DNA from: a virus
Virus record (IMG/VR): IMGVR_UViG_3300027801_000011
Location: 1 to 64,000 of that record
Strand: one strand, 5' to 3'
DNA: 64,000 bases
Shown: positions 25,824 through 30,067 of the stretch, piece by piece
Position numbering within the stretch: position 1 is the first letter of the stretch
Layout: each line of letters starts with the position of its first letter
Translations under genes and position numbers: made by a program
Notes under the pieces: model-generated
What the model was told of the DNA's origin: nothing
The model's input: only the letters and a program-made list of their open reading frames with translations
Database searches by the model: none

Positions 25824-26232
25824 TATTCCCAAAGACAGCATATCGTCTACACCAATAGTAGAAGCAGATGAAGAGCTGGCAGAAGAATCTCAAAAAACGC
25901 CAGAAGAACCAAAAGTGGAAGGTCAACTAAACCAACCTCAAGTTGGTGCCTTTGTGGTACACAGACCAACTCTATGCGGGGATGCTGTCTCAATAATGAC
26001 GGGAATTGATAAGAATTCTAAAGAAGAACCTGTTGCTTTTTGGACTGATGCTCAATATGGACATAAGGTTATGATGCTTCGTAATGATGAGACTAAGACT
26101 GTTAGTATGATTGAATGGCCTAGGCCTGAGATTGCTTGTTTTATATCAGTTGGTACTGATTCTATGATGAAACCAGCTGAAGATGTTGGACAGAAAGTAG
26201 TTTATAAAAGGGACTTGACATTTGCACCTTGA
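25762..26232 (+). CDS. Lipoprotein, unknown
   Basis: A 156-residue protein with signal peptide and lipobox LLMGC (Cys16), an acidic Pro/Glu linker and a globular domain with two further Cys. The start lies inside the nuclease gene, and the last codons contain the -35 of the tmRNA promoter. No family recognised. Confidence 0.6.
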   Translation: MKHLIAIWAVFLLMGCQTNNNIPKDSISSTPIVEADEELAEESQKTPEEPKVEGQLNQPQVGAFVVHRPTLCGDAVSIMTGIDKNSKEEPVAFWTDAQYGHKVMMLRNDETKTVSMIEWPRPEIACFISVGTDSMMKPAEDVGQKVVYKRDLTFAP

Positions 26233-26243
26233 TATGGTATAAA
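26215..26243 (+). promoter_or_regulatory. Promoter for split tmRNA transcript
   Basis: TTGACA 26215-26220, 17 bases, TATAAA 26238-26243. The -10 also reads TATAAATA, so late activation is conceivable. Initiation near 26250 would place both tmRNA pieces and the two mini-ORFs on one precursor. Confidence 0.75.
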
Positions 26244-26263
26244 TAGTATACAATTTGATGATA

Positions 26264-26313
26264 CGAATTGAAAGCTGAACTGGACGAGGGGGCAGTACCC
26301 TCCGCCTCCACCA
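26264..26313 (+). ncRNA. ssrA: tmRNA acceptor piece (3' half, permuted)
   Basis: Ends in a tRNA-like acceptor strand CGCCTCC (26303-26309), discriminator A and encoded CCA (26311-26313). The strand pairs with GGGGGCG at 26473-26479 of the coding piece over 7 bp with one G-U. Directly 5' is a T-arm: stem GAGGG/CCCTC with the 7-base loop GGCAGTA, which is unlike the normal T-loop but fits my memory of alphaproteobacterial split tmRNAs. Lying upstream of the coding piece is the signature of a circular permutation. The exact 5' end is not determinable. Confidence 0.85.
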
Positions 26314-26326
26314 AAAGGAGACTAGA

Positions 26327-26383
26327 ATGCTAGAGATATTGTTAGGGGATTCTGATGAAGACCCCCTTAGTACGAGAGGTTAG
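26327..26383 (+). CDS. 18-codon mini-ORF between the tmRNA pieces
   Basis: An acidic 18-residue peptide with a strong ribosome site (AAGGAGA, 6 bases before the ATG), beginning 14 bases after the acceptor CCA. It overlaps the next ORF in another frame and may be a translational leader for it. Expression is unproven. Confidence 0.4.
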   Translation: MLEILLGDSDEDPLSTRG

Positions 26384-26471
26384 TAAGTGGATGTTTAAAG
26401 CATATATCGTTTGGAGTATATGTGCTGACATTACCCTACTAGCGGGTTTAATATACCTAGTCTTTTTTTGA
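26355..26471 (+). CDS. 38-residue membrane protein in tmRNA intervening segment
   Basis: A 38-residue peptide with a basic N-terminus and one membrane helix (residues 15-37). AGGGGA lies 5 bases before the ATG. It has the look of a small conserved protein of marine T4-like phages. Its stop ends one base before the mature 5' end of the tmRNA coding piece, so RNase processing of the tmRNA would cut this message out of the precursor. Confidence 0.6.
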   Translation: MKTPLVREVSKWMFKAYIVWSICADITLLAGLIYLVFF

Positions 26472-26472
26472 T

Positions 26473-26641
26473 GGGGGCGAAATAGGATCGACAGGCAGAG
26501 ATAGATGAGTGGAGAATTGTCGGATGACTCCGTTATTGGTCAAATTAGTAAATGCAAACGATAATATTGCATATGAGGATTTCGCACTAGCTGCGTAATC
26601 TGTCGGGGTTCGGGGAGTAACCTAGCAACAGAATACTCCCC
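26473..26641 (+). ncRNA. ssrA: tmRNA coding piece (5' half with tag frame)
   Basis: Starts with GGGGGCGAAATAGGATCGAC, matching the conserved 5' end and D-like loop of tmRNA. The tag frame begins at the resume codon GCA (26554) and reads ANDNIAYEDFALAA before TAA at 26596-26598, a textbook degradation tag. CGACAG (26489-26494) can pair with CTGTCG (26600-26605), and GGGGAGTA/TACTCCCC (26612-26619 / 26634-26641) forms a terminal hairpin. The piece rescues stalled ribosomes with SmpB, which is not in the window. The 3' end is placed at the hairpin. Confidence 0.88.
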
Positions 26642-26660
26642 ACTTTATTCGTAAAGGGGG

Positions 26661-26689
26661 TTGACATATACATAAGACTATGTTATACT
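26661..26689 (+). promoter_or_regulatory. Sigma-70-like early promoter
   Basis: TTGACA 26661-26666, 17 bases, TATACT 26684-26689, a near-perfect match. It starts the transcript of the HTH gene at 26805, so the tmRNA and the following genes are separately expressed. Confidence 0.8.
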
Positions 26690-26804: not shown

Positions 26805-27059
26805 ATGACTATTACTACCCAGGCCGCTAAGGTCGAAGCCGCACTCGTAAATGGTGCATCACTAACCGCTAAACAGATTACATCACGTTATGGTGTTAAG
26901 AACGTCCGTTCGGTAATCAGCAAACTTCGTTCTGAAGGTCTTACGATCTATCTGAATAAGCGTGTGTCCACCTTTGATGGCCTATCGTATATGAAGTACA
27001 TGATTGGTACTCCTACACGAGCAGTAGTTGCAGCCGGTTACAAGGCGCTACGTGCTTAA
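26805..27059 (+). CDS. HTH DNA-binding protein
   Basis: An 84-residue basic protein with a helix-turn-helix/winged-helix core: SLTAKQITSRYGVKNVRSVISKLRSEGLTIYLNKR, the last part being the wing. Small proteins of this type are common and often multi-copy in cyanophages; probably a transcription regulator. It has its own strong promoter and ribosome site (AAAGGATA), and the downstream leader contains repeats that could be its operator. Confidence 0.7.
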   Translation: MTITTQAAKVEAALVNGASLTAKQITSRYGVKNVRSVISKLRSEGLTIYLNKRVSTFDGLSYMKYMIGTPTRAVVAAGYKALRA

Positions 27060-28396: not shown

Positions 28397-28619
28397 AAAA
28401 AATAAGGCCATTTTGGCCAAGACGGTCAGAGTCGAAGGGTTCTTTGAATCCAAGACTGCCGAACTTACAGCTCAAGTTTCGAAACTTGAGGGAGAGTGTG
28501 CTGAGTTGGTAGTTTCCAACAAAGAACTCTCAGAGCGTTGTGCTAAGTTAGCAACACGCCATCCTACGTGGCCGCAAGGTTATAAACCACGTAAGTATGT
28601 GAATAACGGAAGTCGATGA
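28389..28619 (+). CDS. Small coiled-coil protein
   Basis: A 76-residue protein with heptads over about residues 15-55 and a basic, Pro-containing tail. Its ATG lies inside the end of the gp59 gene and its stop overlaps the halogenase start. No family recognised. Confidence 0.5.
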   Translation: MDEKNKAILAKTVRVEGFFESKTAELTAQVSKLEGECAELVVSNKELSERCAKLATRHPTWPQGYKPRKYVNNGSR

Positions 28620-30067
28620 CAACTGTTGTTGTAGTCGGTGGTGGTACAGGAGGCGCACTAACGTGTGGCCTCCTTGCTACTAATGGTTATAATGTTATAT
28701 CTGTACGTAGTGTAGATATACCTATAATTGGTGTAGGTGAAAGTTCTACTCCACCACTCGTAGCCGCATTAAATCGTATGGGTATTGCCAAGGAGTTTGT
28801 TGAATCAAATAATTGTTGGCCAAAATACGGTGTTGTCTTTGAAGGTTGGGGTGATACTCCAATGGTTGGTGGATGGCCTGTTAACGGTAGACGTAATGAA
28901 TGTATTACCTACCTAGAGGGTTTAACGAGAGGCGAAGAGATAGGTCGTATCGGTAGTGAAGTCATAGATGGCAAGATGCCGTATATGGAAGAAGCTGATA
29001 GGTTCTATACTACTATAGCATTGCATATAGATTCTACTGATACATCTGAGTTTATATTTGATAAGTTTAAAGATAAGATACAAACTGTTTATGGTAATGT
29101 TGTTGATGTCCAAAAGGGCTCACAGGGTATTGACCATATACTAGTTGATAATACTGGCGCCAATGGCGGTGCCACAGTATTATCTGGAGATTACTTTATT
29201 GATGCCACGGGGTTCAGTAGAGTGTTGATTAAAGAGATGACTGATTCCTTTATCCCGTCAGAGATACCAACGAACTCTGCTGTGTTTGGTGAGATAAAGA
29301 GATTAGATAAGGCGCCAAACGAGGTTTTGTTTGGATGGAATAGTATGATGACTACCGCTAAGACAGCGACTGCTGGGTGGATGTGGAACATACCACTGAG
29401 AGATAGATACGGTTCTGGGTATGTTTATAGTTCTGATTTTCTTACAGAGGAAGAGGCAGAGAAAGAGTTTTATGATTATAGTGGTTGTGAGAAGTTTGGG
29501 CATATGCATTATACGCCTGGATGGATGGCTGACCCAGCAGTAGGTAACTGTTTCGCAGTAGGTATTGCCGCTGGATTTTTAGATGCTTTGGACTCTCCGT
29601 CTATTGGATTGACCGTACTACATATTATGAGTTTCATGAGGAATAAGGAAACGCCCCATAAACACAATAAGTACTGTTCTGGTGCATTTAATGAGTTAGA
29701 AGAATACCTCTTAATGCACTATAAAACCTGTAATAGAACTGAAGCATTTTGGAAGAGCTTCACTCACTTTACAGAAGAGGAAATGAAACTAAGATTTGTG
29801 ATGGCAATAAATTCTAAGGATTGGGATGATAGGTCTGTTAGTGGATTCACTAATAGTGCCACTGCTAGAATTATTACACACAGAATGAAAATCGATGAAG
29901 ACTATGCTAGTATGATATATGAGAATATACCTCAAGCAGAACGAGATCAAGCAAAGATTCAATGGATCATGGCTAGAGATCAATTCGTACCATTTTCATA
30001 CGAACTGTTTACACGGCACGTATTGGAATCAACTAACATCAAAGAAAGAGAAGGACAGTTTAGATGA
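28616..30067 (+). CDS. Tryptophan-halogenase-like flavoprotein
   Basis: A 483-residue FAD protein of the flavin-dependent halogenase group. The FAD-binding GGGTGGALTCGLLA is at the N-terminus, GVGESSTPP follows at about residue 40, and the halogenase motif WxWxIP appears as GWMWNIPL near residue 258. Such genes are frequent in marine T4-like phages. True halogenation needs a specific Lys and a flavin reductase, neither verified, so oxidation of another substrate is possible. Confidence 0.82.
   Translation: MTTVVVVGGGTGGALTCGLLATNGYNVISVRSVDIPIIGVGESSTPPLVAALNRMGIAKEFVESNNCWPKYGVVFEGWGDTPMVGGWPVNGRRNECITYLEGLTRGEEIGRIGSEVIDGKMPYMEEADRFYTTIALHIDSTDTSEFIFDKFKDKIQTVYGNVVDVQKGSQGIDHILVDNTGANGGATVLSGDYFIDATGFSRVLIKEMTDSFIPSEIPTNSAVFGEIKRLDKAPNEVLFGWNSMMTTAKTATAGWMWNIPLRDRYGSGYVYSSDFLTEEEAEKEFYDYSGCEKFGHMHYTPGWMADPAVGNCFAVGIAAGFLDALDSPSIGLTVLHIMSFMRNKETPHKHNKYCSGAFNELEEYLLMHYKTCNRTEAFWKSFTHFTEEEMKLRFVMAINSKDWDDRSVSGFTNSATARIITHRMKIDEDYASMIYENIPQAERDQAKIQWIMARDQFVPFSYELFTRHVLESTNIKEREGQFR

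Follow-up and report, generated by a model that had tools for sequence, protein, structure and literature searches.

The window analysed here is a 64,000-nucleotide stretch of viral DNA (positions 1 to 64,000 of IMG/VR record IMGVR_UViG_3300027801_000011) that matches the Rfam alpha_tmRNA model at 26211-26642 with 137.4 bits (E 2e-37, gathering cut-off 50) and the tmRNA_permuted model with 122.6 bits (E 2e-23, cut-off 47). The original prediction had placed a phage-encoded, circularly permuted tmRNA at this site and named covariance models as its check, and with both scores far over the curated cut-offs the gene is confirmed. The locus comprises the following features.

26215-26245, plus strand: candidate composite promoter, TTGACA (26215-26220), 17 nt and TATAAATA (26238-26245), from its sequence and conserved place
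26250-26313, plus strand: acceptor piece with T arm, acceptor 3' strand CGCCUCC and encoded ACCA (26310-26313), from the Rfam RF04321/RF01849 alignments
26314-26472, plus strand: intervening segment (IVS, the spacer) between the two pieces, 159 nt, length and frame the same in 32 distinct relatives (bacterial median 34 nt)
26314-26325, plus strand: closing helix, 5' arm AAAGGAGACUAG, including the AGGAG of ORF1, from RNAfold and viral-spacer pairing statistics
26327-26383, plus strand: ORF1, 18-aa leader-like ORF (MLEILLGDSDEDPLSTRG) overlapping ORF2 by 29 nt, start kept in 32/32, pN/pS 1.03
26355-26471, plus strand: ORF2, predicted 38-aa single-span membrane protein MKTPLVREVSKWMFKAYIVWSICADITLLAGLIYLVFF, open in 32/32, pN/pS 0.24
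26457-26468, plus strand: closing helix, 3' arm CUAGUCUUUUUU, from RNAfold and viral-spacer pairing statistics
26473-26642, plus strand: coding piece with 5' acceptor strand GGGGGCG and mRNA-like part, from the RF01849 match at 26211-26642
26554-26598, plus strand: tag reading frame ANDNIAYEDFALAA plus UAA, from the sequence and close tag variants in other phages

As had been predicted, an acceptor piece ending in CCA (26313) lies upstream of a coding piece beginning GGGGGCG (26473), the acceptor strands CGCCUCC/GGGGGCG pair over 7 bp, one of them a G-U pair, and the tag frame runs into its UAA after a hydrophobic AA end. Close variants of the tag, such as ANDNFAPQDFALAA and ANDNIASQDFALAA, occur in other phage tmRNAs. 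The score, the permuted order with encoded CCA and the tag all assign the gene to the alpha-type two-piece tmRNAs (RF01849/RF04321). It is very improbable that this tmRNA is decaying and that the locus now serves mainly as an mRNA for the small protein: a simple tag pattern gave no tag in 71 of 300 viral tmRNAs among the matches listed, as decay would predict, but the window retains an intact T arm, acceptor pairs with their G-U, an ALAA-ending tag and a 137-bit Rfam score, and ANDN...ALAA-type tags recur in other phage tmRNAs. The neighbouring genes encode PhoH, an exonuclease (PD-(D/E)XK in the Melnitz annotation), a late promoter regulator (T4 gp33-like), a helicase loader and a tryptophan halogenase. 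Because the PhoH protein is closest to that of Melnitz (66%), followed by HTVC008M (62%), we place the window phage among the T4-like marine myophages, and as judged by its sequence the locus is an intact two-piece, alpha-type tmRNA gene of such a phage. A search of the phage record (115,309 bases, possibly incomplete) found no match for SmpB, and rescue would therefore use host SmpB.

Several other features of the region may be recorded. The tryptophan halogenase gene (28616-30067) lies shortly downstream of the tmRNA, and a strong sigma70-like promoter (TTGACA-17-TATACT, 26661-26689) stands directly behind the coding piece, before a gene at 26808. A glutamine riboswitch (RF01739, 50 bits) occupies 926-975 of the window, and behind it comes a small basic ORF (1003-1110, MPKLIYYQYLKLIRERRIKEINKILQRRKRTYGNF); in Melnitz, a similar sequence lies just downstream of the tmRNA, also before a small basic ORF (MTLYQQWCYLKAQKEYRRRQKILMYFRIRLKG), where the Melnitz record has its annotation on the other strand.

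Phage-encoded two-piece tmRNAs as such are established. The original prediction had mentioned reports of ssrA-like genes in related marine phages, and these are real: Methylophilales phage Melnitz was published with one in 2022, in a paper that counts 53 such structures in phages, of which 50 are aquatic (PMC9004378). Pelagibacter phage Mosig also has a two-piece tmRNA. Both phages (Melnitz SsrA, MZ577097; Mosig SsrA, MT647606) share with the window a two-piece tmRNA in a T4-like marine myophage and a similar neighbourhood, with the PD-(D/E)XK nuclease and late-transcription coactivator in both and PhoH in Melnitz. They differ from it in the spacer, which in Mosig is a short non-coding hairpin, whereas in Melnitz it holds an ORF from a different family, which extends into the coding piece and has no annotation of its own, SsrA being the only feature recorded there.

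It is the spacer that sets the window apart. ORF1 is preceded by an AGGAG ribosome site, and ORF2, with a maximum 19-residue hydropathy of 2.11, ends in a TGA one base before the coding piece, as had been predicted for a 38-residue membrane ORF; this UGA is part of a conserved UGAU. The proposed comparison of spacers with those of related phages bears ORF2 out: among the matches listed its frame is open in 32/32 distinct relatives with a 159-nt spacer, within a window family of at least 52 distinct spacers. Across these 32 spacers the entropy at the three codon positions is 0.51/0.17/0.86, and the pN/pS of 0.24 lies below that of column shuffles (mean 0.73, minimum 0.37). In the same relatives the start codon position of ORF1 is kept as ATG, GTG or TTG (32/32 among the matches listed), and the part of ORF1 outside the overlap has a pN/pS of 1.03, showing no amino-acid constraint. 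Thus, of the two protein genes originally proposed for the spacer, both reading frames exist and ORF2 is under selection, whereas ORF1 as a selected protein is rejected by its pN/pS. On its pattern of substitution, ORF2 is a conserved protein gene in a tmRNA spacer; ORF1 we read as a leader, the strong AGGAG site of which would load ribosomes. A tblastn search of ORF2 against 50,697 phage records gave no match, and a PHROGs and Pfam search with ten spacer proteins gave no family; weak matches to DUF2542 and holin HP1 fell below the cut-off and were not used. The likely site of action of the ORF2 product is the inner membrane, late in infection.

To place this spacer among others, we cut spacers from permuted tmRNAs, at least 300 viral and at least 118 bacterial, that were collected with the same 20-base probe on viral contigs (many of them short fragments) and bacterial genomes, plus three probes for long-spacer types. 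The 118 bacterial spacers listed look like plain non-coding hairpins of 4-277 nt (median 34 nt), and match lengths of 385 alphaproteobacterial genomes against RF04321 likewise imply mostly short spacers. The window, with its 159 nt and conserved ORF2, departs from this short non-coding type. An SD-ORF of at least 20 aa spanning half the spacer is present in 24 of 121 viral records of the same-probe set (window, Melnitz and Mosig included) and in 0 of 118 bacterial ones among the matches listed (Fisher 3e-8, a guide only, given the non-independent records and the shorter spacers of bacteria). The claim that the phage spacer differs from the discarded bacterial one is thus upheld for the bacterial spacers listed. 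Among the matches listed, 65 of 181 distinct viral spacers of at least 60 nt have an SD-ORF reached in <1% of dinucleotide shuffles of the spacer concerned. Bacteria with long spacers were considered as doing likewise and set aside, the outliers checked (L571-L578) looking non-coding.

In other marine phages the same slot is occupied by small proteins of at least five more unrelated families and by several singletons; these phages include the Melnitz isolates, in which the spacer ORF is 68% identical over 38 aa to that of a family from viral contigs. Four of these other families have pN/pS values of 0.29, 0.17, 0.16 and 0.41; a value of 0.68 for family 2 comes from a loose alignment, so that support for this family rests more on its conserved sequence. 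Homologues of the spacer proteins also occur outside the spacer. Those of the L019, L020 and L006 proteins are free-standing genes up- or downstream of the tmRNA in many contigs, and a homologue of ORF2 itself lies 113 nt upstream of the acceptor-piece end in L063 and 244 nt upstream in L326, where the spacers (96 and 89 nt, respectively) have no ORF of the ORF2 family. We regard such homologues as the strongest sequence evidence that the spacer is a gene. They bear directly on the view that RNA structure, or chance in AT-rich DNA, accounts for the open frames, the long spacer being a structured or small RNA. Short ORFs commonly arise by chance, and spacers of 60-120 nt with a structured, apparently non-coding character do exist in other phage lineages, but the homologues outside the tmRNA, the codon periodicity, the pN/pS of 0.24 against shuffles and the conservation of amino acids across divergent DNA make this explanation of the locus highly implausible; at the level of sequence it is already refuted for ORF2, and it still stands for ORF1.

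Two further groups of spacers were observed. A second phage class of about 60-120 nt looks structured and non-coding (L011, L028, L039, L120, L558-L565), with T-loop-like motifs (GGTTCGAATCC) in some, and is found in roseophage and rhizobiophage isolates too. A C-terminal motif, HRxHTxxYEDLC, is common to several spacer ORFs with different N-termini and also stands beside the tmRNA outside the spacer; its loci include L043, L254, L302, L332 and L371, and L048 and L079.

The spacer content turns over readily. On a tree of 131 tmRNAs built with the spacer left out, a quick tree of modest support with several long branches, the spacer class changes at least 46 times, and close pairs differ strongly, one member having a spacer ORF that the other lacks: the tmRNAs of L113 and L083 are 96% identical with spacers of 37 vs 239 nt, and those of L112 and L184 are 90% identical with spacers of 32 vs 159 nt. 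The ends of the reading frames vary as well. Of the 87 SD-ORFs listed, 26 use the UGA of UGAU as their stop and 22 have it at another place in the spacer, while 19 run into the coding piece as far as the UAG of GAAAUAG and 20 continue beyond it; in this tally the script sometimes took ORF1, or a start inside the frame, to represent the window family. The one-base gap between the ORF2 stop and the coding piece is no general rule, since in many other families the stop stands at another place in the spacer or within the coding piece.

The predicted fold of the precursor links the reading frames to the RNA. RNAfold gives -64.7 kcal/mol for 26303-26479 (z = -5.3 vs shuffles), and the first bases of the spacer pair with its last bases, ending four bases before the coding piece. 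In 181 viral spacers the first ten positions are 93% paired, vs 65% when the 3' ends are dealt to other sequences, and alternative registers of the closing helix leave only 43-63% paired over the first eight positions. Most inner positions of the helix show several pair types in the viral spacers, and the helix is compensatory in viral and bacterial spacers. CCA faces UGAU or UGGC, and the precursor is therefore predicted to form one long stem. As read from these comparisons, ORF2 sits in the enlarged apical loop of the ancestral hairpin that prolongs the acceptor stem, and in the modelled fold the strongest ribosome site, the AGGAG of ORF1, is buried in that base-paired stem. A GGGG/CCCC hairpin over the ORF2 ribosome site pairs in most relatives; as codon constraint may account for this pairing, no claim is built on it.

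Gene packing without coupling is a serious rival at this point, to which we assign somewhat less than even odds: a densely packed genome would simply tolerate insertions in the spacer, either the precursor or read-through mRNA would yield the small protein, and translation and maturation would proceed independently. The many unrelated families in the slot and their frequent turnover (at least 46 class changes on the 131-row tree) agree with this, as do the presence of some of the same genes up- or downstream of the tmRNA and the varying stop positions. Two traits of the window suggest more than storage, namely that the ribosome site of ORF1 is kept in the paired stem and that, in the window family, the UGA that ends ORF2 falls within the conserved UGAU at the processing site.

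The octamer TATAAATA is the T4 late -10 sequence. It stands upstream of the tmRNA in most members of the window family (48/52) and family 2 (38/46) and in every member of family 3 (12/12), compared with 1/116 bacterial tmRNAs (matches listed in each case); a -35-like TTGAC usually precedes it by 16-18 bases in the window family. In the window, the element expected upstream of a T4-type late unit is found at 26238-26245. As the octamer alone is not rare there (7 found vs 5.4 expected), weight is given to its conserved place. By analogy with T4 we infer that TATAAATA acts as a late promoter, and the arrangement suggests late or double expression of the tmRNA locus; for Melnitz SsrA, its authors proposed early expression (PMC9004378).

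We favour, with a probability of about 0.7, the reading that the locus is an alpha-type two-piece tmRNA of a T4-like phage in which the spacer, normally discarded, now serves as a protein gene, so that the precursor would have a dual fate. One transcript from the sigma70/late composite promoter would serve two ends. Ribosomes loading on the leader ORF1 or on ORF2 would open the stem and reach the base before the coding piece, and a ribosome ending ORF2 would cover the first coding-piece bases, which should prevent acceptor-stem pairing and RNase P cleavage. The folded precursor would hide the ribosome site in return, and precursors free of ribosomes would fold and be cut into tmRNA, the excised RNA being lost. 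Each precursor would thus be either translated or matured into tmRNA, and from this geometry the ribosome and RNase P should compete.

Where the stop lies within the coding piece, as in the 19 and 20 SD-ORFs given above, RNase P would make a non-stop mRNA. This would permit a self-targeting loop, in which the cut spacer mRNA, its stop codon at or past the extreme end, is rescued and its product tagged by the phage tmRNA, limiting the small protein when tmRNA is plentiful. Although 39 of the 87 SD-ORFs listed have no stop before the coding piece (theirs is the UAG of GAAAUAG or lies beyond it), and in the window a single base follows the ORF2 stop, that stop codon itself survives the cut, and we consider such a loop unlikely. 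The dual-fate reading could also be extended to a large marine phage group, in which spacer translation would block RNase P, processing would cut the message at or before its stop, one transcript would set the ratio of small protein to rescue RNA and the tmRNA would be able to tag its own spacer product; this extension is tentative, and we regard it as well short of probable.

With respect to known systems, the alphaproteobacterial two-piece tmRNAs (RF01849/RF04321) share with the window the order of the pieces, the acceptor pairing, the stem-extending spacer ends and an ANDN...AA tag, and differ in their short spacer (median 34 nt vs 159 nt with a conserved gene). Genes nested in the removed part of a tmRNA precursor are known from the parts of a 2025 tmRNA database paper that were available: tmRNA group I introns carry homing endonuclease genes, and one permuted spacer, nominally archaeal, contains a tRNA gene (PMC11915505). 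The window differs from both, having a protein gene in the spacer rather than an endonuclease gene in a self-splicing intron or a tRNA gene in a spacer, and those parts of the paper make no mention of protein genes in permuted tmRNA spacers. The words 'intervening' and 'spacer' are absent from the Melnitz paper (PMC9004378), and the literature searched, outside preprints and most subscription journals, yielded no report of protein genes in tmRNA spacers. As far as this literature reaches, the spacer protein gene is new, while the phage two-piece tmRNA itself was already published.

Since ARAGORN, when run on the window, did not detect the tmRNA gene, and the Melnitz record annotates SsrA only, small phage proteins may lie hidden in tmRNA genes. 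On this evidence, protein genes have repeatedly settled in the removed part of a structured RNA precursor. Ribosomes would have to read the very transcript that must fold for RNase P, so that the case lends itself to testing directly how a single molecule accommodates both translation and RNA maturation, and as Melnitz can be cultivated with its host, the question of coupling is testable now.
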